DNA of 64,000 nt from Pseudoduganella namucuonensis. GTDB taxonomy: Bacteria; Pseudomonadota; Gammaproteobacteria; Burkholderiales; Burkholderiaceae_D. Of the stretch, positions 1,417 to 33,530 are shown in pieces. The translations under genes were made by a program, and so were the position numbers. The stretch spans positions 124,001 through 188,000 of the forward strand of contig NZ_FPBO01000003.1 of the NCBI RefSeq assembly GCF_900116645.1, given 5' to 3'. Each line of letters opens with the position of its first letter. Position 1 is the stretch's first letter. The notes under the pieces are model-generated. The model made no database searches. It saw only the letters and a program-made list of their open reading frames with translations, and was not told the origin of the DNA.

Positions 1417-1501
1417 AAATAGCCCAGGGCGTTTTTTCCCGCACAGAAAAAAGCGCCCAGGGCTATTTTTCCCTCACAGCAATAAGCGCCCAGGGCTATT
1501 T
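1417..1501. repeat. REP-like palindromes, left flank of RAYT gene
   Basis: Three copies of a short element with core GCCCAGGGC and A/T-rich arms lie here: about 1418-1437, 1449-1470 and 1481-1501. The first two face each other (AAATAGCCCAGGGCG versus GCGCCCAGGGCTATTT), forming a hairpin-pair (BIME-like) arrangement. The third repeats the orientation of the second. The same element recurs on the other side of the transposase gene in the opposite orientation. This is the expected substrate of a REP-associated tyrosine transposase, and the array may also act as a transcription terminator for the chemotaxis gene. Confidence 0.85.
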
Positions 1502-1568
1502 TCGGGTAAGCAGCTTGATCCTTGCGATAGCGCACAGTTCGCTCGTGAGGGCTGTCTAAGCTGGCGGA

Positions 1569-2258
1569 ATGCCTGCGAACCCTAGAATCCATCCGCCCGG
1601 ATACCCTCTGCACATTGTTCAGCGTGGACACAACCACGCCCCATGCTTTCTCGATGGTGAAGATTTCGATACCTATCTGCGCATGCTGAATGTTGCGTTG
1701 GAAAAGACCGGATGCCGGCTACACGCTTACGTGCTGATGAAAAATCATGTTCACCTCTTGCTGACCCCGTCAGAACCAGGCGCGGTCGCCAAGCTGTTCA
1801 TGTCGCTGGGCGGCTCCTACGTTCCTTACTTCAATCGAAAATATGGTCGCTCCGGCACGTTGTGGGAACGCCGCTACTACTCGTCGGTGATCGACAGTGA
1901 GGAATATCTGCTGTGCTGCTACCGCTACATCGAGATGAACCCGGTGCGCGCCGCCATCGTCGATGATCCCGCCTTCTATCGCTACAGCAGCTACCGCGCG
2001 AACGCGTTGGGAGAGCCGTGCAAGCTCATCACTCCGCACGAGTCATACATGGGCATGGCTTCCGACGCGTACGAGCGTCGCCTAGCCTACCAGGCACTGT
2101 TCCGTGAGCAACTCGAACCTGGGGTAATGGCCGCGATCCGGGCCTCACTGCATCAGAGCAAGCCTGTGGGCAATTCCAAATTTATCAACAAGGTGGCCGA
2201 AATCACCCGGCAGAAATGCGAGATCGTGCCTCGAGGAAGACCGCAGGCCGATAAATAG
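1569..2258 (+). CDS. REP-associated tyrosine transposase (RAYT, Y1/IS200-like)
   Basis: This 229-residue protein belongs to the Y1 single-strand nuclease family related to IS200/IS605 TnpA. The HUH-type motif is visible as KNHVHLLLTP near residue 58, with YSSYRANALG and YRYIEMNPVRAAI further on, both typical of RAYTs. RAYTs are domesticated, normally single-copy enzymes that process REP hairpins and do not move as classical insertion sequences. The family fits the setting: six REP-like palindromes flank the gene and its own TAG stop lies inside the first downstream copy. The C-terminal tail (RGRPQADK) is basic and may help bind hairpins. No intact IS ends or target duplication are seen. Confidence 0.9.
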   Translation: MPANPRIHPPGYPLHIVQRGHNHAPCFLDGEDFDTYLRMLNVALEKTGCRLHAYVLMKNHVHLLLTPSEPGAVAKLFMSLGGSYVPYFNRKYGRSGTLWERRYYSSVIDSEEYLLCCYRYIEMNPVRAAIVDDPAFYRYSSYRANALGEPCKLITPHESYMGMASDAYERRLAYQALFREQLEPGVMAAIRASLHQSKPVGNSKFINKVAEITRQKCEIVPRGRPQADK

Positions 2259-2329
2259 CCCTGGGCGCTTATTTCTGGGAAGGAATAATCGCCCAGGGCG
2301 CTTTTCGTAAATAGCCCTGGGCGCTTTTT
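2253..2329. repeat. REP-like palindromes, right flank of RAYT gene
   Basis: Three further copies lie at about 2253-2274 (AAATAGCCCTGGGCGCTT), 2287-2305 and 2309-2329. The outer two are inverted relative to the second and third copies on the left flank, so the RAYT gene sits between oppositely oriented arrays. The RAYT stop codon lies in the first copy and the mtnN stop codon (2328-2330, minus strand) overlaps the end of the last. The array fills the whole space between two convergent genes and probably ends transcription from both sides. Confidence 0.85.
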
Positions 2330-3035
2330 AGCGGGCGCAGAAGTTTTTGAGGACGCCGAAGGCGTAGCGGGAGGCGACGGTCTGCACGAAGTGCATGAAG
2401 TCGACCGCGGCGTCTTCGTTGGCGTTGTCGGAAATCGTGCGGATGACGCCGAACGGGATGCCGAACTCGAAACACACTTGCGCGACCGCCGCGCCTTCCA
2501 TTTCCACCGCCAGCAAATCCGGCAACGCGTCTTTCAGGGCGCTGATCTGCGACCGTTTGTTGATGAACTGGTCGCCACTGGCGATCAGTCCGCGGTGCAT
2601 TTGCGGCGCCAGCGCCTCGTTTTCCAGGAATTCGCGGGCAGCCACCGCCAGGCGGCGGGTCAGCTCGCGGTCGGTGGCGATGTGGGACTGGCCGGTCAGC
2701 GGGATGTCGAATCGGGGAAACAGGGGACTGGCGTCCATGTCGTGCTGAACCAGCGATTCGGCCACCACGATGTCGCCAACCCGCACCCCGAGGTCGCCAC
2801 TGCCGGCGACGCCGGTAAAGATGATGTGGGTAACTCCGAACTTTTCCACAAGGATGCTGGCCGTCATCGCGGCGGCGACCTTGCCTATACGCGACAGGAC
2901 GCACACAGCGTCGATTTCCCACAGCTTGCCCGCCGTGTACTCACGCATGCCATGGATGAGCTTGGCGGGGCCCTGCATGGCTTCTATCAGCCCGTATTGC
3001 TCTTCAGCGAGTGCGCTGATGATCCCTAAACGCAT
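2328..3035 (-). CDS. mtnN: 5'-methylthioadenosine/S-adenosylhomocysteine nucleosidase
   Basis: The enzyme hydrolyses methylthioadenosine and S-adenosylhomocysteine to adenine plus a thioribose sugar, recycling by-products of methylation and polyamine synthesis. The 235-residue length is usual. Family marks are the N-terminal IISALAEEQ with the catalytic Glu, GVAGSGDLGVRVGDIVVAES, the nucleoside-binding VEMEGAAVAQVC and the catalytic Asp in RTISDNAN. A GGGGGA ribosome site precedes the ATG. The gene points away from the DnaA-box modules, so module A forms its upstream region. It is cytosolic. Polyamine genes at 39-44 kb would generate its substrate but are not linked to it. Confidence 0.95.
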   Translation of the reverse strand: MRLGIISALAEEQYGLIEAMQGPAKLIHGMREYTAGKLWEIDAVCVLSRIGKVAAAMTASILVEKFGVTHIIFTGVAGSGDLGVRVGDIVVAESLVQHDMDASPLFPRFDIPLTGQSHIATDRELTRRLAVAAREFLENEALAPQMHRGLIASGDQFINKRSQISALKDALPDLLAVEMEGAAVAQVCFEFGIPFGVIRTISDNANEDAAVDFMHFVQTVASRYAFGVLKNFCAR

Positions 3036-3094: not shown

Positions 3095-3317
3095 GTTTAC
3101 AAAAGATATATATAAAAACATAGTAGTAGATAGTAAACGGACGATTTTTTTGTGGATAAGTCTGTTAACAACCAAAAAATCAGTGGTTTACGACGCTTAA
3201 AACGTGCTGAACAAGCATTGTATCCAGCCAGGACGACTTCTGGACAAGAAAAAAACCGTCCCCAACTCCACCGCTTTCCCACAACTCATCCTGTGGATAT
3301 GCATGAGCTTATCCACA
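3095..3317. repeat. DnaA-box module A (origin-like repeat, copy 1 of 3)
   Basis: In order: GTTTAC 3095-3100; an A/T-rich run; DnaA-trio-like TAGTAGTAGATAGTA 3121-3135; GTAAAC 3133-3138; a perfect DnaA box TGTGGATAA 3151-3159; GTTAAC 3164-3169; GTTTAC 3186-3191; and a closing inverted pair of boxes, TGTGGATAT 3292-3300 and TTATCCACA 3309-3317. Read away from the first box, the tract gives 3'-AAT and GAT triplets. Copies B and C keep the same order and nearly the same distances. This module is the upstream region of mtnN. It could be part of a replication origin or a DnaA-binding reservoir. Confidence 0.75.
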
Positions 3318-3383
3318 ATCGCCCTTTTTCCCGATTTCTGGCCTCCAGGCTTTTCGCTTGCGGACACGCGTCTTCCTTAGCTT

Positions 3384-3603
3384 GTTAACTAGAGCTTTAT
3401 ATAAGAATGATAGTAATAGTAAACGTCGCGACTTCTGTGGATAAGCACGTTAACCACAGCGAAATCAGGGATTTAGGAAAAAGATAAGCGACTGGACAAG
3501 GCTTGTACCAGCGCAGGGGCAAAAACTGGATAAAATTTCAGCTGTGTAGTATTCAGTGGTTTACTCACACGCCGTCCTGTGGATATCCATGGACTTATCA
3601 ACA
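3384..3603. repeat. DnaA-box module B (origin-like repeat, copy 2 of 3)
   Basis: In order: GTTAAC 3384-3389, trio-like TAGTAATAGTAA 3411-3422, GTAAAC 3419-3424, a perfect DnaA box TGTGGATAA 3436-3444, GTTAAC 3449-3454, GTTTAC 3559-3564, and the closing pair TGTGGATAT 3578-3586 and TTATCAACA 3595-3603. The distance from first box to closing pair is 142 bases and the two closing boxes start 17 bases apart, matching the other copies. The right end overlaps the last codons and stop of the GGDEF-EAL gene. Sequence between the boxes has diverged from copy A without net insertion or deletion up to the ACAAG position 60 bases after the first box. Confidence 0.75.
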
Positions 3604-6600
3604 GACCCCATCAGACTTGCCAATTCCTCCCCCGACAGGGGCCTGGAAAACAGGTAGCCCTGGCCGAAATCGCAGCCGGCGTCCCGCAAAGTCCTCATGT
3701 TGGCGGCCGTTTCCAGCCCCTCGGCGATGATCTGGATGCCCATTTTGTGCGCCAGCCCCACCATCGCCGCGCAAATCGCGCCGCCATCGGCGCCGTCGGC
3801 CAGATTGGTAAAGAAGGCGGGGTCGATTTTGAGGAAATCGAGGTTGTAGCGCTTGAGGAAGGCCACCGAGCAGTAGCCGGTGCCGAAGTCGTCCAGCGAG
3901 AGCTGGATTTCCGCCTCGTGCAGGGCTTGCAGCTTGCGGCCGACCTCGTGATTGGCCTCCAGCAGCAGGCTTTCCTTGACTTCGATGATGACGCTGCGCG
4001 GATGGAGCTGTATCTCGTCGAGGAAATCCAGCCATTCGCCGAAGTTGCTGCCGCCCTCGCGGAACTGCCAGGCCGAATTGTTCACCGCGACCTGGAAATC
4101 CGGGTCGTGCAACTGCTGCATGCGCTTGGCGTGGCGGGCGGCTTGGCGGAACACCCAGTCGCCGATGCCGACGATGGCGCCGGTGTGCTCGGCGATAGTG
4201 ATGAAATCCGCCGGTCCGAGCAGGCCGCGCGTCGGATGTTGCCAGCGCACCAGCGCCTCGGCCTTGCGGATGCGGCCGCTGTCGAGTTCGACGATGGGCT
4301 GGAACAGCACCCGCAGCTGGTCGCCGCACAGCGCGTCGCGCAATTCATTGGCCAGCGCCACCCGCGCCCGGCTGGCTTCCTGCATGAAGGGCGCGAAGTA
4401 GTTGAAACGGTCGCGGCCCTGCTGCTTGGCGGCGTACATGGCCTGGTCGGCGTTTTTCACCAGCGTCTCGGCGTCGTGGGCGTCGTCCGGATACAGCGTG
4501 ATGCCGATGCTGGCGGAGATGTGGACAACTTCATTGCCCAGCTGGAAGGGCGTGGCCGAGGCCTTGAGGATGTCCTGGGCGATGCGCAGCACGTCGGCCG
4601 GATCGCGCAGCTCGCCCAGGATGACGGTGAACTCGTCGCCGCCGAGACGGGCCACGGTGTCGGTGCTGCGCACGCTTTGCAGCAGCCGCCGCGCCACGTC
4701 CTTGAGCAGGATGTCGCCGGTGTCGTGGCCCAGCGTGTCGTTGACCTCCTTGAAACCGTCCAGGTCGATGAACACCAGCGCCATCGGCAGGTGGGCGCGG
4801 TCCGATTTGCGCATTTCCTGCCGTAGCCGTTCCTGGAACATGCGCCGGTTCGGCAAGCCGGTCAGCGCGTCGAAGTTGGCTTGCTTCCAGATCAGTTCCT
4901 CGTTGGCCTTTTTCTTGGTGATGTCGGAGAACAGGGCGACGCGCCGGTAGGCCACGCCGTGCTTGTCGAACACGGCGTTGAAGCGCAGCGAGACCAGGTA
5001 GTGTTCGCCGTGCTTGTTCTGGTGCCAGACTTCGCCCTCCCACTGGCCGGTGTGGATGATGGCGTGCCGCATCTTGTGGAAAAACTCGTAATCCTGGCGG
5101 CCCGAGGTCAGTTCGTAGGCCCAGTGGCCTTTGACTTCCTCTTCGCTGTAGCCGCTGATGCGGGAAAAGGCGGGATTGACCGACAGGATCAGGCCGTCGA
5201 AGTCGGTCACCATCATGCCTTCGCTGCTGTTTTCGTACATCAGCGCGGCCAGCTTCATGCTTTCCTCGCCGGCCCGGCGCTCGGTGATGTTTTCCGCCAT
5301 CACGATCAGGCCGCGCACCTGGCCGTCGGCGCCGACGTCGGGCACATAGGTGATCGCGTCCCAGCGCTCGCCGGCGCGCGTGGTCAGCGGACGCTCGAAA
5401 CTGACGATCTCGCCCGCCAGCGCCTTGCGCAGGTATGGCTCGGACAGGGCGTAGGCGTTGCGGCCGATGACCTGCGCGACGTCGAGGCCGAGCGCCGTGC
5501 CCGGGAGCAGGTCGAAGGCCTGTTCGAAACGCTGGTTGGTGAAGGTGTAGCGTTCGTCGCGGTCGACATAGGTGATGACGATGGGCAGGTTGTCGGCGAT
5601 CAGCCGCAGCCGCTGCTCGCTGGCGGACAGTTTTTCCTCCGTGTCCCGGCTGGAGACGTAGAGCTGGCGGTAGCGCGCCTCGCGTTCCTCCACCTTGGCG
5701 TAGGAGCGCAGCGCGAAATGGCCGCTGACGACCATCAGCACCAGCAACAGCGCGAGTCCGGGCACGCCGACCATGAAGGCCGGACCGGAGAACCACACGG
5801 CGTCCAGGTCGGAACTGCCGACCGCGACCACCAGCGGCAGCTTGTCCATGGAGCGGTAGCTGAAAATGCGCGGTAATTTGTCGATTTTGCTGACGGTCCG
5901 ATAGCTGCCGGACGGGCTTTTCGCCAGGCTCTCGAACAAAATCGTCTTGCTCAGGTCGAAATTGAACGCGGTGTCGAAGTTCGGCGCGCGGGCGATCACC
6001 CGGCCGTTCTTGTGCACCAGGGCGATCGACACGTCCTGCGCGATGCGCGAGTTTTCAAACACGGTGGCGAAGCGGGTCGCGTCCAGCGGGGCGACGATGA
6101 CGCCGAGGAACTCTCCGTTGGCCGATTCGATCCTGCGGCTAAGGAAGAACAGCTTTTGTCCGGAAACGCGGCCCAGGCCGGGTCCGCCGATGAACAAGCC
6201 CTGGATGACGCCGTTCTTGTGGGCCTGGAAATAGTCGCGGTCCGAGTAGTCGGTTCCGGCGACCGCCAAATCGGTGGAGGTGGCGACGGCCTTGCCCCGC
6301 GCGTCGAGGATGGTGATCCAGAAATCATGGGTGAACGAGGAGCCGTGCGAGGACAGCATCGCGTTCAGTGTTTCCGGGGAGCGGCTTTGTTCGGGCGGCA
6401 GCACCTTGATGGCGTTGGCGTAGCCGATCAGCGACAGGTCGACGAACTGGATCGCATACATGACATGCGCTTCCATCGCGCGAACGAATTGTTCGGTCTG
6501 GCGTTGCAGGGCGGCTTGGCGTTCCAGCGCGGAAGAGCGGATTTGCCATCCGACCAGGGCGCTCGCCAGCAAAGCCATGGCGATCAGGCCGGCCAGCAAT

Positions 6601-6671
6601 CGTCCGCGAAAGCGCAGGTAGGCTTGGGACCGGGCTGATTTCGTTGTTGTCGTTGGTCGTGCCACAGTCAC
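3561..6671 (-). CDS. Membrane Cache-PAS-PAS-GGDEF-EAL cyclic-di-GMP protein
   Basis: This 1036-residue signalling protein probably makes and/or degrades cyclic di-GMP. A first membrane helix lies near residues 25-44 (AGLIAMALLASALVGW), followed by an extracytoplasmic Cache-type sensor to about 290 (DSRDYFQAHKNG region) and a second helix near 298-320. Two PAS domains follow (about 350-470 and 480-600; the second has SVNPAFSRISGYSEEEVKG). The GGDEF domain has an intact RLGGDEF near 674-680, and the EAL domain an intact EALVRWQHP near 804, so both activities are possible. Its last 14 codons lie inside DnaA-box module B, and module C lies beyond its start. The signal sensed is unknown. Confidence 0.93.
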   Translation of the reverse strand: MTVARPTTTTKSARSQAYLRFRGRLLAGLIAMALLASALVGWQIRSSALERQAALQRQTEQFVRAMEAHVMYAIQFVDLSLIGYANAIKVLPPEQSRSPETLNAMLSSHGSSFTHDFWITILDARGKAVATSTDLAVAGTDYSDRDYFQAHKNGVIQGLFIGGPGLGRVSGQKLFFLSRRIESANGEFLGVIVAPLDATRFATVFENSRIAQDVSIALVHKNGRVIARAPNFDTAFNFDLSKTILFESLAKSPSGSYRTVSKIDKLPRIFSYRSMDKLPLVVAVGSSDLDAVWFSGPAFMVGVPGLALLLVLMVVSGHFALRSYAKVEEREARYRQLYVSSRDTEEKLSASEQRLRLIADNLPIVITYVDRDERYTFTNQRFEQAFDLLPGTALGLDVAQVIGRNAYALSEPYLRKALAGEIVSFERPLTTRAGERWDAITYVPDVGADGQVRGLIVMAENITERRAGEESMKLAALMYENSSEGMMVTDFDGLILSVNPAFSRISGYSEEEVKGHWAYELTSGRQDYEFFHKMRHAIIHTGQWEGEVWHQNKHGEHYLVSLRFNAVFDKHGVAYRRVALFSDITKKKANEELIWKQANFDALTGLPNRRMFQERLRQEMRKSDRAHLPMALVFIDLDGFKEVNDTLGHDTGDILLKDVARRLLQSVRSTDTVARLGGDEFTVILGELRDPADVLRIAQDILKASATPFQLGNEVVHISASIGITLYPDDAHDAETLVKNADQAMYAAKQQGRDRFNYFAPFMQEASRARVALANELRDALCGDQLRVLFQPIVELDSGRIRKAEALVRWQHPTRGLLGPADFITIAEHTGAIVGIGDWVFRQAARHAKRMQQLHDPDFQVAVNNSAWQFREGGSNFGEWLDFLDEIQLHPRSVIIEVKESLLLEANHEVGRKLQALHEAEIQLSLDDFGTGYCSVAFLKRYNLDFLKIDPAFFTNLADGADGGAICAAMVGLAHKMGIQIIAEGLETAANMRTLRDAGCDFGQGYLFSRPLSGEELASLMGSVDKSMDIHRTACE

Positions 6672-6774
6672 CCCGGTATGTCGGCTGTGTTGTCTCGACC
6701 AGTATAGGGGAAGCGGCAGGCGTTTTGTTGCCGAGTGTGTGGTTTTGCCGTCAGCACCGGGTAAGTCGCCTTTG

Positions 6775-7001
6775 GTTTACTTTAAAAAGACGTGTATACA
6801 AAATAGTAGTAATTGTTAACGTAGCCACATTTCTGTGGATAACCGCGTTTACTGGATTAGAATCAGTTGTTTGCGAACTGCATAAGCGGGCGCGCAAGCG
6901 GTGTACTGGCGAGGGACGGTATCTGGACAATAAAACGCGTTCCGGTTTACCTTTTGCTTACTCACAATTCGTGCCTGTGGATATCCAATGAGTTATCAAC
7001 A
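6775..7001. repeat. DnaA-box module C (origin-like repeat, copy 3 of 3)
   Basis: In order: GTTTAC 6775-6780, an A/T-rich run, trio-like TAGTAGTAA 6804-6812, GTTAAC 6815-6820, a perfect DnaA box TGTGGATAA 6834-6842, GTTTAC 6847-6852, GTTTAC 6945-6950, and the closing pair TGTGGATAT 6976-6984 and TTATCAACA 6993-7001. First box to closing pair is again 142 bases. It occupies most of the gap of about 350 bases between the divergent GGDEF-EAL and nitronate monooxygenase genes and ends just before the ribosome site of the latter. Copies B and C therefore bracket the GGDEF-EAL gene. Confidence 0.75.
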
Positions 7002-18851: not shown

Positions 18852-18867
18852 TGTTTCACGTGGAACA
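18852..18867. other. parS: parS site, centromere-like ParB binding site
   Basis: TGTTTCACGTGGAACA is close to the well-known chromosomal parS palindrome TGTTTCACGTGAAACA (15 of 16). It lies between the TSUP gene and mnmG, about 3 kb before parAB. Confidence 0.88.
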
Positions 18868-18874
18868 TCGGAGA

Positions 18875-18897
18875 GGGCGCTTGCGGCGCCCTTTTTT
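18875..18897 (+). terminator. Rho-independent terminator after TSUP gene
   Basis: GGGCGC (18875-18880) pairs with GCGCCC (18886-18891), followed by six T residues. It lies between the two parS sites. Confidence 0.85.
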
Positions 18898-18933
18898 ACG
18901 TCCATACACTTGCCATGAGCCGGGCTCACGCGA

Positions 18934-18949
18934 TGTTCCACGTGGAACA
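18934..18949. other. parS: parS site, perfect 16-base palindrome
   Basis: TGTTCCACGTGGAACA is a perfect palindrome, a standard chromosomal parS variant. Together with the site at 18852 it makes a pair 82 bases apart just upstream of mnmG-rsmG-parAB. Confidence 0.88.
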
Positions 18950-18997
18950 ATCCACCTAATATTTTTGCCTAAAAAAGTCGCAGCACGGAAAAGACTC

Positions 18998-19040: not shown

Positions 19041-20972
19041 ATGTTATTTCCTACTGAATTCGACGTTATCGTTGTCGGCGGCGGTCACGCCGGTACGGAA
19101 GCCGCGCTGGCCGCGGCCCGTATGGGGCAGAAGACCCTGCTGCTGACGCACAACATCGAGACCCTGGGCCAGATGTCCTGCAACCCGTCCATCGGCGGCA
19201 TCGGCAAGGGCCACTTGGTCAAAGAAGTCGACGCCATGGGCGGCGCGATGGCCATCGCCACCGACGAGTCCGGCATCCAGTTCCGCATCTTGAATTCCTC
19301 GAAAGGCCCCGCCGTGCGCGCCACCCGCGCCCAGGCAGACCGCATGCTGTACAAGCAGGCCATCCGCTCGCGCCTGGAAAACCAGCCCAATCTGTGGCTG
19401 TTCCAGCAGGCGGTGGACGACCTGATGGTGGAGGGCGACCGCGTGGTCGGCGCCGTCACCCAGATCGGCCTGAAGTTCCTGGCGCCCGCCGTGGTGTTGA
19501 CCGCCGGCACTTTCCTCGACGGCAAGATCCACGTGGGCCTGCAGAACTACTCGGCCGGCCGCGCCGGCGATCCGCCCGCCATCTCGCTGTCCGCGCGCCT
19601 GAAGGAACTGAAGCTGCCGCAGGGCCGGCTGAAGACCGGCACGCCGCCGCGCATTGACGGCCGCAGCATCGACCTGTCCGCCATGACCGAACAGCCGGGC
19701 GACCTGGATCCGGTGCCGGTGTTCTCCGTCATGGGCAACACCGCCATGCATCCGCGCCAGCTGCCGTGCTGGGTGACGCACACCAACGCCCGCACGCACG
19801 ACATCATCCGCGCCGGCCTGGACCGCAGCCCAATGTATACCGGCGTGATCGAGGGCGTCGGCCCGCGCTACTGCCCGTCCATCGAGGACAAGATCCACCG
19901 CTTCTCGTCCAAGGAGTCGCACCAGATCTTCCTGGAACCGGAAGGCTTGACCACCAACGAGTTCTACCCCAACGGCATCTCCACCAGCCTGCCGTTCGAC
20001 GTGCAGATCGAGCTGGTGCGGTCGATGAAGGGCATGGAAAACGCCCACATCCTGCGCCCCGGCTACGCCATCGAGTACGACTATTTCGACCCGCGCGGCC
20101 TGAAGGCCTCGCTGGAAACCAAGGCCGTGGGCGGCCTGTATTTCGCCGGCCAGATCAACGGCACCACCGGCTACGAGGAGGCGGCGGCGCAGGGTATGCT
20201 GGCCGGCATCAACGCCGCGCTGCAGACCCAGGGCAGGGAAGCCTGGACCCCGGCGCGCTCGGAGGCCTACCTGGGCGTGCTGGTCGACGACCTGGTCACG
20301 CAGGGCGTGCAGGAGCCCTACCGCATGTTCACCAGCCGCGCCGAGTACCGCTTGAGCCTGCGCGAGGACAACGCCGACATGCGCTTGACCGAGATCGGCC
20401 GCAAGCTGGGCTGCGTCGGCGACGCGCAGTGGGAGTCCTTCGAGCGCAAGCGCGAATCGGTCGCGCTGGAGCTGGAGCGCCTGCGTTCCACGTGGGTGAA
20501 TCCGCGCATCCTGGCCGCCGCCGAGTCCGAGCGCGTGGTGGGGCAGGCCATCGAGCGCGAGTACTCGCTGGCCGATCTGCTGCGCCGTCCCGGCGTGGAA
20601 TATGAGACCCTGATGACCTTGTCCGGCATGGAAGGGCAGGCCCTGGCCGGTCCCGGCGTGGCCGATCCGGCGGTCAAGGAACAGGTGGAGATCCAGCTGA
20701 AATACGCCGGCTACATCGAGCGCCAGAGCAAGGAAGTGGAGCGCCACGAGCACTACGAGAACCTGAAACTGCCGGAGGGCTACAACTATCTGGACATCAC
20801 GGCGCTGTCGGTCGAGGTGCGCCAGAAGCTGCACAAGCAGCGCCCGGAGACGCTGGGCCAGGCCTCGCGCATCTCGGGCGTGACCCCGGCGGCGATCTCG
20901 CTGCTGCTGGTGCACCTGAAGAAGAGCGGTTTCGGCGGCTTCGCGAACCTGAAAGACGAGGCCGTGCAATGA
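19041..20972 (+). CDS. mnmG: tRNA uridine 5-carboxymethylaminomethyl modification enzyme MnmG (GidA)
   Basis: A 643-residue FAD enzyme that with MnmE installs the cmnm5 group on wobble U34 of several tRNAs. Marks are the FAD fold [22 protein letters not shown], cited here by region 19059-19124, then [30 protein letters not shown], the catalytic Cys region [13 protein letters not shown] and [16 protein letters not shown]. The length is standard. It is the first gene of an mnmG-rsmG-parA-parB row, an order often found near the chromosomal origin. The rsmG ATG overlaps its stop by four bases. Confidence 0.97.
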
Positions 20973-22579: not shown

Positions 22580-23476
22580 ATGGCAACGAAAAAACTGAAA
22601 GGCCTCGGTCGCGGCCTGGACGCCCTGCTGGGCGGCGACGGCGATCCCTCCAATCCGGCGTCGAACCCGGCCGCGCAGGCGCCGGGCGAACTGGCGATCT
22701 CGCAGATGCAGGCGGGCAAGTACCAGCCGCGCACCCGCATGGACGAGAGCGGCCTTTCCGAGCTGGCCGCGTCCATCAAGGCGCAGGGCATCATGCAGCC
22801 CATCCTGGTGCGGCCGATCGCCGCCGCCAAGGGCGACACGCTGGCTCGCTACGAGATCATCGCCGGCGAGCGACGCTTCCGCGCCGCGCAGATGGCCGGC
22901 CTGGAACAGGTGCCGGTGCTGGTGCGCGACGTGGACGACCGCGCCGCCGCCGCCATGGCGCTGATCGAGAACATCCAGCGCGAGGACCTCAATCCGCTCG
23001 AGGAGGCGCAGGGCATCCACCGCCTGATCACCGAGTTCACGTTCACGCACGAGCAGGCGGCCAGCGCGGTCGGCCGTTCGCGCAGCGCCGTGTCCAATCT
23101 GCTAAGGCTGATGAACCTGGCCGCGCCGGTGCAAACCATGCTGATGGCCGGCGACATCGACATGGGCCACGCCCGCGCGCTGCTGGCGGTCGACGCCGCC
23201 ACGCAGATCACGCTGGCCAATGTTGTTGTGGCAAAACGACTGTCGGTGCGAGAAACGGAAAAACTCGTGCAGCGCGCCCAGGAGGAGCAATCCGAGCAGG
23301 CCGAGCGCAAACCGAAGGAGAAATCCGGGGACATCCTGCGCCTGGAGGAGGAGCTTTCCGACGCGCTGGCCACGCCGGTGGTGTTCAAGATGGGCGCCAA
23401 GGGCAAGGGACAGATGGTGATCGACTTCGCCGACCTGGACGTGCTGGACGGCCTGCTGACCCGCCTCAGGGGCTGA
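22580..23476 (+). CDS. parB: Chromosome partitioning protein ParB (Spo0J)
   Basis: A 298-residue parS-binding CTPase clamp. It opens with the family's GLGRGLDALLGG, then IMQPILVRP and the CTP-binding EIIAGERRFRAAQMAGL, followed by ENIQREDLNPLEEAQ and the helix-turn-helix around TFTHEQAASAVGRSRSAVSN that reads parS. The C-terminal dimerisation domain ends GLLTRLRG. Length is standard. It partners ParA and should load at the 18852 and 18934 sites. A weak hairpin follows the stop. Confidence 0.96.
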   Translation: MATKKLKGLGRGLDALLGGDGDPSNPASNPAAQAPGELAISQMQAGKYQPRTRMDESGLSELAASIKAQGIMQPILVRPIAAAKGDTLARYEIIAGERRFRAAQMAGLEQVPVLVRDVDDRAAAAMALIENIQREDLNPLEEAQGIHRLITEFTFTHEQAASAVGRSRSAVSNLLRLMNLAAPVQTMLMAGDIDMGHARALLAVDAATQITLANVVVAKRLSVRETEKLVQRAQEEQSEQAERKPKEKSGDILRLEEELSDALATPVVFKMGAKGKGQMVIDFADLDVLDGLLTRLRG

Positions 23477-32480: not shown

Positions 32481-33530
32481 TTAGCCGCGCTTGTCGCGGT
32501 TGCGGGCCGAGGCCGCCTTATGGATCACTTTCCACCGGGAGCGTTCGGCTATCCGCTCCAATGGGGTTTGCTGGCTGCGCTGTATATCGCGCATCAGCTT
32601 GCGGTAATTGAACAGGCGATCCGGATCGATATTGTCCCGTACCGCGCAGCCGGGTTCCAGTTCGTGTTTGCAATCGCGGAATTGGCATTGCGCCGCCAAT
32701 GAATCGATATCGTCGAAGGCCGCCGCGATACTGTCCTCCCCGCCATCCGGTCTTAAAGTACGCAGGCCGGGCGCATCGATAATGCACGCGCCCGTCGCGC
32801 AAATATGCATGGAACGGAATGTCGTGGTATGCCTTCCCCTGCTATCGCCTTCACGTATTACCCCTGTTTCCTGATGCGCGGCGCTCAAGGTATTGGTCAG
32901 TGTCGATTTTCCCGCGCCGGACGAGCCGAGCAGGCATAAAGTCTGTCCATATCCCAACCAAGGATCCAAGGCCGAAACCGAAGCGGCATCCAGGGCGTTT
33001 ACCGCGACGATGGGATAGCGCGCCGGTATGCGGCGCCTTAATTCATCCACACGCTGATGAATATCATGGCCGATATCGCATTTCGTCAGAACGATCAATG
33101 CCGAAACCTCGGAGGCCTCGGTCAATGCGATATAGCGTTCCAGCCTGCGCACATTGAAATCATGATCCAGGCCCATGACCAACAGGGCAGTGTCGATATT
33201 GCTGGCGATGGCTTGGCGGCGTCCGTCATAAGATCTGCGGCTGATATGGTTGACTGGGGATAAACGCTGGCTTATCCACAGTTCTCCGTGGGCCATATTG
33301 TCAACCACCACCCAGTCGCCGACGGCGAGCACATATTCCCCGTGCAATTTGGCGAGCGCGCGGGCTTTTAACTCGCGGACCCCGTCGTGGACTGTCAGCC
33401 ATTCACGCTGGACTTCCGTGATGCGCATGAGCCGCGCGTCATCGGCGACTGGCTCGAGCAGGCCCAATTGGCCGGCGATTAACTGCTTGAATCCGATATG
33501 GCGTAATTGTTCAAAATTGAAAGCTATCAT
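32481..33530 (-). CDS. rsgA: Small ribosomal subunit biogenesis GTPase RsgA
   Basis: A 349-residue circularly permuted GTPase acting late in 30S assembly. An N-terminal OB-fold comes first (VGDWVVVDNMAHGELWISQRL, 33270-33332). The permuted G motifs follow: TKCDIG (G4), then GSSGAGKSTLTNTL (G1), RGRHTTTFRSMH (G2) and DAPGLRTL (G3). A zinc knuckle CQFRDCKHELEPGCAV follows. ATG 33530 is preferred; a longer frame to 33590 adds a basic leader unlike the family. Its slightly long form resembles the second RsgA type found in many proteobacteria. Confidence 0.9.
   Translation of the reverse strand: MIAFNFEQLRHIGFKQLIAGQLGLLEPVADDARLMRITEVQREWLTVHDGVRELKARALAKLHGEYVLAVGDWVVVDNMAHGELWISQRLSPVNHISRRSYDGRRQAIASNIDTALLVMGLDHDFNVRRLERYIALTEASEVSALIVLTKCDIGHDIHQRVDELRRRIPARYPIVAVNALDAASVSALDPWLGYGQTLCLLGSSGAGKSTLTNTLSAAHQETGVIREGDSRGRHTTTFRSMHICATGACIIDAPGLRTLRPDGGEDSIAAAFDDIDSLAAQCQFRDCKHELEPGCAVRDNIDPDRLFNYRKLMRDIQRSQQTPLERIAERSRWKVIHKAASARNRDKRG

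Follow-up and report, generated by a model that had tools for sequence, protein, structure and literature searches.

Three diverged sequence modules of the soil bacterium Pseudoduganella namucuonensis together very probably form its chromosomal replication origin (oriC), an origin of known kind but in a new form. They lie in the window, a stretch of 64,000 nucleotides taken from contig C39 (bases 124001-188000) of the 8.49-Mb draft genome. Each of the three measures about 225 b and contains, in order, an A/T-rich run, trio-like repeats, a first DnaA box TGTGGATAA, and an inverted DnaA-box pair. A previous sequence-only reading had proposed that the locus is either an oriC or a datA/DARS-like site, and this proposal is supported, with oriC favoured by the conserved geometry and copies, by GC skew in those relatives where it can be resolved, and by a register between first box and IHF-like site known from Escherichia coli oriC. 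Two points absent from that reading are added here, namely the IHF-like site and the link to GTWWAC methylation. On a bolder reading, which we hold less likely than not, the two or three units of this single origin would each be a complete oriC, descended from an ancient duplication and preserved in its own right, and each would open DNA and load helicase; GTWWAC methylation would license them jointly, such that an orphan methylase and a putative hemimethylation reader take the place of the Dam/GATC/SeqA clock.

Architecture of the modules

Positions in the window, strand, and identity of the features are as follows:

3095..3317, + strand: putative origin module 1 (direct reading; module profile match in L196)
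3105..3136, + strand: A/T-rich region of module 1, with the trio-like tract TAGTAGTAGATAGTAA at 3121-3136 (direct reading; trio test over 129 modules)
3151..3159, - strand: first DnaA box of module 1, R1-like, TGTGGATAA when read on the + strand
3178..3190, + strand: IHF-like site WATCARNNNNTTR of module 1, at +27 from the first box
3292..3317, + strand: inverted DnaA-box pair of module 1, boxes starting at 3292 and 3309, 17 b apart
3095, 3133, 3164, 3186: GTWWAC starts in module 1, the second site (3133..3138) lying between trio and first box
3384..3603, + strand: putative origin module 2 (direct reading; module profile match)
3411..3422, + strand: trio-like tract TAGTAATAGTAA of module 2 (direct reading)
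3436..3444, - strand: first DnaA box of module 2 (box pattern match)
3463..3475, + strand: IHF-like site of module 2 (direct reading; R1-IHF register match)
3578..3603, + strand: inverted DnaA-box pair of module 2, boxes starting at 3578 and 3595
3384, 3419, 3449, 3559: GTWWAC starts in module 2
3561..6671, - strand: GGDEF-EAL gene between modules 2 and 3, the 3' end of its open frame overlapping the module 2 pair
6775..7001, + strand: putative origin module 3 (direct reading; module profile match)
6804..6812, + strand: trio-like tract TAGTAGTAA of module 3 (direct reading)
6834..6842, - strand: first DnaA box of module 3 (box pattern match)
6861..6873, + strand: IHF-like site of module 3 (direct reading; R1-IHF register match)
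6976..7001, + strand: inverted DnaA-box pair of module 3, boxes starting at 6976 and 6993
6775, 6794, 6815, 6847, 6945: GTWWAC starts in module 3
18852..18951, no strand given: two parS-like sites, starting at about 18852 and about 18934
19041..20972, + strand: mnmG (gidA), TIGR00136
21729-22499, + strand: parA
22580-23476, + strand: parB

The spacings claimed in the sequence-only reading were recovered exactly, as the first box precedes the pair by 141, 142 and 142 b (first boxes at 3151, 3436 and 6834) and the two boxes of a pair start 17 b apart in all three modules. Its account of GTWWAC holds for the hexamer placed exactly 13 b after each first-box start (3164, 3449, 6847), but not for a uniform count of four per module, as module 3 has five. 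Likewise, inverted pairs are present in all three modules with TGTGGATAT always as the left box, but a perfect right box is confined to module 1, modules 2 and 3 having TTATCAACA there. The parS sites, mnmG, parA and parB lie where they had been placed. Just left of the modules, window positions 1418-2330 harbour a REP-associated tyrosine transposase-like gene (1569-2258), which scores below the curated cut-off of its family and is flanked by repeated AATAGCCC(T/A)GGGCG elements, and a lone perfect DnaA box, TTATCCACAG, is found at 33272, right of the atp genes.

Within 360 kb of the own contig, clusters of at least four near-consensus DnaA boxes occur only at modules 1-2 (7 boxes, 127.15-127.60 kb) and in an array upstream of the modules; module 3 has three such boxes. 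For comparison we used relatives from one sampled family (f1), presumably, like the own genome, Oxalobacteraceae to judge by their names (Massilia, Duganella, Pseudoduganella, Janthinobacterium, Rugamonas and Undibacterium among the matches listed). In the loci examined, 129 of 178 distinct pair hits were preceded by a perfect first box at 140-143 b and constitute the study set; the 49 without such a box were set aside, many of them being chance matches in unrelated taxa and some being Oxalobacteraceae with an imperfect first box (e.g. L034, L036, L098, L111). Mean A+T of the 129 modules reaches 0.75 between -60 and -15 of the first box, and 71 of them contain strict trio repeats, where about 2 are expected in shuffles. 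An A/T-rich element with a DnaA-trio adjoining a DnaA box is therefore discernible, and is predicted to be the site of unwinding.

Outside the boxes used for selection, among the columns invariant in the 129 modules are +30/+31 (C, A) and +37/+38 (T, T), counted from the first box, which form the core of the IHF-like site WATCARNNNNTTR starting at +27; the full IHF consensus fits only 65 of the 129. The corresponding register, R1-N19-ATCA-N5-TT, was detected in 86 of 145 genomes and 27 of 44 genera of the family (reversed control, 0), and in 25 of 399 genomes across the order, with one reversed match. In the entire 8.49-Mb own genome it has three matches only, which are the three modules. Among the family hits, at least three (G101, G123, G182) resemble, by eye, one conserved coding sequence and not an origin.

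This layout is shared with E. coli oriC, in which an A/T-rich region is likewise followed by TGTGGATAA in the same orientation and then by ATCA at +28 from the box start, which in E. coli is part of the IHF site. Furthermore, both end in a box of opposite orientation and share a clustering of adenine-methylation sites, one of which is at +13. The modules thus display the fixed E. coli register between the first box and a predicted IHF site, and the IHF site of E. coli itself fits the strict consensus only with two mismatches. On the other hand, E. coli oriC terminates in R4 alone, with 181 b from first to last box, whereas the modules terminate in an inverted pair, with about 159 b from first to last box; unlike E. 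coli oriC, they also come as three copies in series, in a genome in which no SeqA was found. E. coli oriC adjoins mnmG, and the modules are also near mnmG but 12 kb away.

Conservation and ancestry of the copies

The sequence-only reading had suggested a search for the same spacing in relatives, and this search revealed that geometry and copy layout are conserved across genera. The strict pair pattern TGTGGATAT-N8-TTATCMACA has three matches in the 8.49-Mb own genome, all at the modules, and none in the reversed-pattern control. It is present in 24 of 25 same-genus genomes (own included), each time on one contig and within <4 kb, the sole genome without it being 83% complete; none of 16 genomes from other families has it. 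A looser pair pattern matched 41 of the 145 sampled family genomes, with no match for its reversed control, and the long-distance pattern matched 7 of 300 genomes of the order, one of which (G331) lies outside the family and is probably a chance match. A chance origin of the modules is rejected by the reversed-pattern controls and the GTWWAC counts.

Modules with this layout are shared among Oxalobacteraceae such as Massilia, Duganella and Janthinobacterium, frequently as 2-3 copies, and a module profile search also yielded two or three copies in many loci. Among 54 named loci, which were chosen for at least two visible modules and hence exclude one-module loci (matches counted above 80 bits), 30 have three copies and 24 have two. 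Of the 86 genomes matched by the strict first-box/IHF pattern, which misses imperfect copies, 46 gave a single copy, 37 gave two, and 3 gave three. Several loci are arranged in their own ways. Those of the Duganella type (L047, L073, L101) show two visible modules about 3.1 kb apart, like modules 2 and 3 flanking the GGDEF-EAL gene here, and in four genomes R1-IHF units face opposite ways, 0.7-2.9 kb apart (G154:C1:221841/224742, G167:C1:4057355/4060259, G166:C1:245936/247086, G179:C10:228236/228927). In L041, from a Luteibacter MAG (supposedly a gammaproteobacterium), pair-pattern matches at 2205 and 3552, 1.3 kb apart, occur without a first box and without a module-profile match.

Inside one three-copy genome, the copies are only 51-80% identical to each other. 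When position was counted from the downstream end in the 54 chosen loci, the best match of a copy was the same-position copy of another species in 130 of 138 cases, and a copy of the same genome in only 2. Many of these nearest neighbours are congeners, and three-copy loci were therefore also matched between groups, where a third of the matches would be expected to fall on the same position. Same-position matches amounted to 18/21 for Janthinobacterium copies against Massilia-type loci, 14/21 for Janthinobacterium copies against the own/Pseudoduganella group, and 38/60 for Massilia-type copies against the own/Pseudoduganella group, the matching being good for copies 1 and 3 and poorer for copy 2. 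This between-genus test is weaker evidence than the nearest-neighbour count. As judged from sequence similarity, the module series is thus probably older than the divergence of the Janthinobacterium, Massilia-type, and own/Pseudoduganella groups, with less certainty for copy 2.

As a variant of the oriC reading, to which we give a little short of even chances, just one of the modules may work as origin, while the rest assist it as DnaA loading platforms or timing sinks, or are kept as spares. Bacterial origins usually have a single unwinding site, and such a division would suit this practice, the two modules, not three, seen in 24 of the 54 chosen loci within the stretch examined, and the weaker between-genus matching of copy 2; yet every own copy keeps its first box, IHF-like register, pair, and GTWWAC sites, and the closeness of nearly all copies (130/138) to the same-position copy of another species is what would be expected if each was separately constrained.

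GTWWAC clustering and a candidate methylase

The 670 b of the modules comprise 13 GTWWAC sites, where 0.07 would be predicted from the rest of the 360 kb of contig analysed, an enrichment of about 180-fold, and 250-b windows with at least three GTWWAC are found in these 360 kb only at the modules. Averaged over the 129 modules there are 4.3 GTWWAC per 290 b, compared to 0.42 expected under a first-order model, and the next of 16 palindrome classes is less than one quarter as frequent. In 128 of 129 modules, one site falls at the trio end, between -17 and -19 relative to the first box. Furthermore, when all 129 hits of the R1-N19-ATCA-N5-TT family search are counted, GTWWAC falls within the 19-b spacer that separates first box and ATCA in 54 of them, where 2.5 are expected, and 46 of these 54 have it at +13. 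E. coli oriC, in contrast, contains 11 GATC and 0 GTWWAC, whereas GATC averages 0.6 per module and shows no E. coli-like clustering. A search for the SeqA family gave 0 matches in the own genome, while a control search recovered SeqA in E. coli. The E. coli-type combination of clustered GATC and SeqA was thus not found here.

The own genome encodes one full-length N6_N4 methylase, next to one short partial match. The methylase gene (L289:1429-2376, G000:C63) lies between frames that read by eye as hisD and hisC; a blast search with the own genes recovered the same hisD-MTase-hisC arrangement in 4 of 5 relatives checked, whereas the fifth has only hisD next to the methylase. On the own contig, a Dam-like hit at C39:115.9 kb was set aside, as its open frame reads by eye like the rRNA methylase RsmD, and two further MethyltransfD12 hits cover only the end of the profile. 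Orthologues of the methylase occur in 118 of the 145 family genomes; outside the family, 4 of 15 genomes have one, these four being Burkholderiaceae-like, with 64-68% identity and with the gene between TrpB- and TrpA-like frames (named by eye). The gene seems to have switched operon (trp versus his) while staying among amino-acid biosynthesis genes.

According to the accessible parts of the respective reports, orphan adenine methylases act on GTWWAC both in Ralstonia solanacearum (PMC5390034) and in Burkholderia cenocepacia, where the gene, BCAM0992, is located between trpB and trpA (PMC7364216). Methylated GTWWAC was reported near the B. cenocepacia origins, and exponential growth of the mutants was unchanged (PMC7364216, same parts), which argues against an essential role of the methylase in that species. 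By orthology to the four Burkholderiaceae-like genes, the own methylase appears to belong to the BCAM0992/RSc1982 family, and may well methylate the module sites in P. namucuonensis.

Probable location of the origin with respect to dnaA

dnaA and the modules share a contig in 16 of 17 genomes, at a distance of about 275-440 kb in 14 of them; in G103 they are 156 kb apart, and in G041 dnaA lies 719 kb away, on the other side. GC skew, a check already named in the sequence-only reading, was sampled in six genomes, from each of which 20 stretches of 20 kb were taken. The log-likelihood of a switch at the module minus that of a switch at dnaA was +7.0 in G088, +7.2 in G041, +1.8 in G058, +0.6 in G023, +0.2 in G110, and -0.7 in G145 (sum, +16.1). 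The switch at the modules is hence clear in G088 and G041 and weaker in G058, and in G041 it falls at the modules though dnaA is 719 kb away. For G023, G110 and G145, the best change point coincides with neither the modules nor dnaA, and G145 leans slightly to dnaA. The outcome of the check was therefore mixed: in resolvable relatives the switch follows the modules and not dnaA, but the window and 360 kb of the own contig exhibit weak, mixed skew with no clear switch, so that no support comes from the own genome. Gene-strand bias between dnaA and the modules is about 0.5, which is consistent with an origin somewhere in the region and does not separate the two. An origin next to dnaA was rejected, as the 1 kb upstream of the own dnaA contains only two boxes with at most one mismatch and no GTWWAC.

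Published cases agree that origins of this order can sit away from dnaA. As far as the accessible parts of these reports go, the skew switch and candidate origin of Cupriavidus metallidurans CHR1 are about 90 kb from dnaA (PMC2864759), the candidate origin of Ralstonia pickettii is next to hemE, with a double origin in DoriC (PMC4403523), and the exact origin of B. cenocepacia chromosome 1 is called uncertain (PMC4948915). Like the modules, the candidate origins of C. metallidurans CHR1 and R. pickettii have a DnaA-box cluster off dnaA; unlike them, they are described in those parts without serial copies, IHF register or GTWWAC geometry (PMC2864759, PMC4403523).

The upstream array is the second DnaA-box cluster in the 360 kb of the own contig. 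At C39:112.42-112.90 kb (112420-112900), about 14 kb upstream of the modules and 11.1-11.6 kb left of the window, DnaA boxes follow each other head to tail in the same orientation, often 11-12 b apart, and adjoin a frame reading by eye like an Lrp/AsnC regulator. Five genomes have an array at this distance of about 14 kb upstream, namely the own, G088 (L161:4313-4872), G023, G145, and G041, in the last of which it points the other way and has further clusters close by. Arrays are located elsewhere in G110 and G058; the array-like cluster of G058, 63 kb from its modules, is the only one of its kind in 108 other sampled stretches. Such recurrence and close box spacing could indicate that the array is the origin, or that array and modules form one bipartite origin, but we consider this unlikely: the DNA that separates array and modules still carries left-arm skew in G088 and G041, which places the switch at the modules rather than the array; in G058 the skew is already positive between the distant cluster and the modules; and the array is devoid of GTWWAC in 6 of 7 genomes. 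Instead, the array is a candidate DnaA reservoir or origin enhancer, and looks more reservoir-like than the modules.

A datA/DARS reservoir is defined by DnaA boxes and an IHF site, without an unwinding element and away from the skew switch. That the modules are such a titration or reactivation locus, which would bind DnaA with IHF in order to time an initiation starting elsewhere, e.g. at dnaA, is very unlikely, since their strong boxes and IHF-like site, several copies, distance from dnaA, and the slight lean of G145 are outweighed by A/T-rich regions, many with strict trio repeats, by a skew switch that coincides with the modules in G088 and G041 and, more weakly, in G058, and by the sparse boxes and missing GTWWAC upstream of the own dnaA.

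Proposed mode of action and implications

If the modules together are the oriC, as is very probable, DnaA would fill the strong first box and the inverted pair of a module, IHF would bend the DNA between the two, and a DnaA filament would then spread onto the trios and open the A/T-rich strand for helicase loading. The orphan methylase would methylate the GTWWAC adenines, and a passing fork would leave them hemimethylated, as a mark of an origin that has just fired, like GATC in E. coli, with a different enzyme and a putative reader. Modules in series could raise the chance of opening, let two helicases load at different modules, or serve as a loading platform for one another.

This model is reminiscent of the bipartite origins of Bacillus subtilis and Helicobacter pylori, which also have more than one DnaA-box cluster in the origin region. 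However, their two parts flank dnaA, whereas here whole modules are repeated and dnaA is far away. A serial origin like this one was not found described in a literature search, whose coverage extended to few subscription papers and to no bioRxiv preprints. The origin of B. cenocepacia chromosome 1 is similar in that it is near parAB and is reported to include an IHF site and an A/T-rich block besides DnaA boxes, and in that GTWWAC, the target of BCAM0992, is reported as methylated near the origins; in contrast to the modules, its elements are described as dispersed, and the accessible parts of the reports describe no repeated module of fixed spacing (PMC4948915, PMC7364216).

To date, many betaproteobacterial origins have been placed at dnaA by convention or left uncertain, as in print for B. 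cenocepacia (PMC4948915, accessible part), and the modules would provide a precise and recognisable origin for a large family. They suggest, furthermore, that the E. coli layout of a box followed by an IHF-like site in register is not tied to control by GATC. As a natural serial origin, the locus offers a system for asking why a cell keeps several units. Finally, the GTWWAC pattern points to a candidate function for a conserved methylase whose purpose is unclear, namely the marking of the origin after firing.
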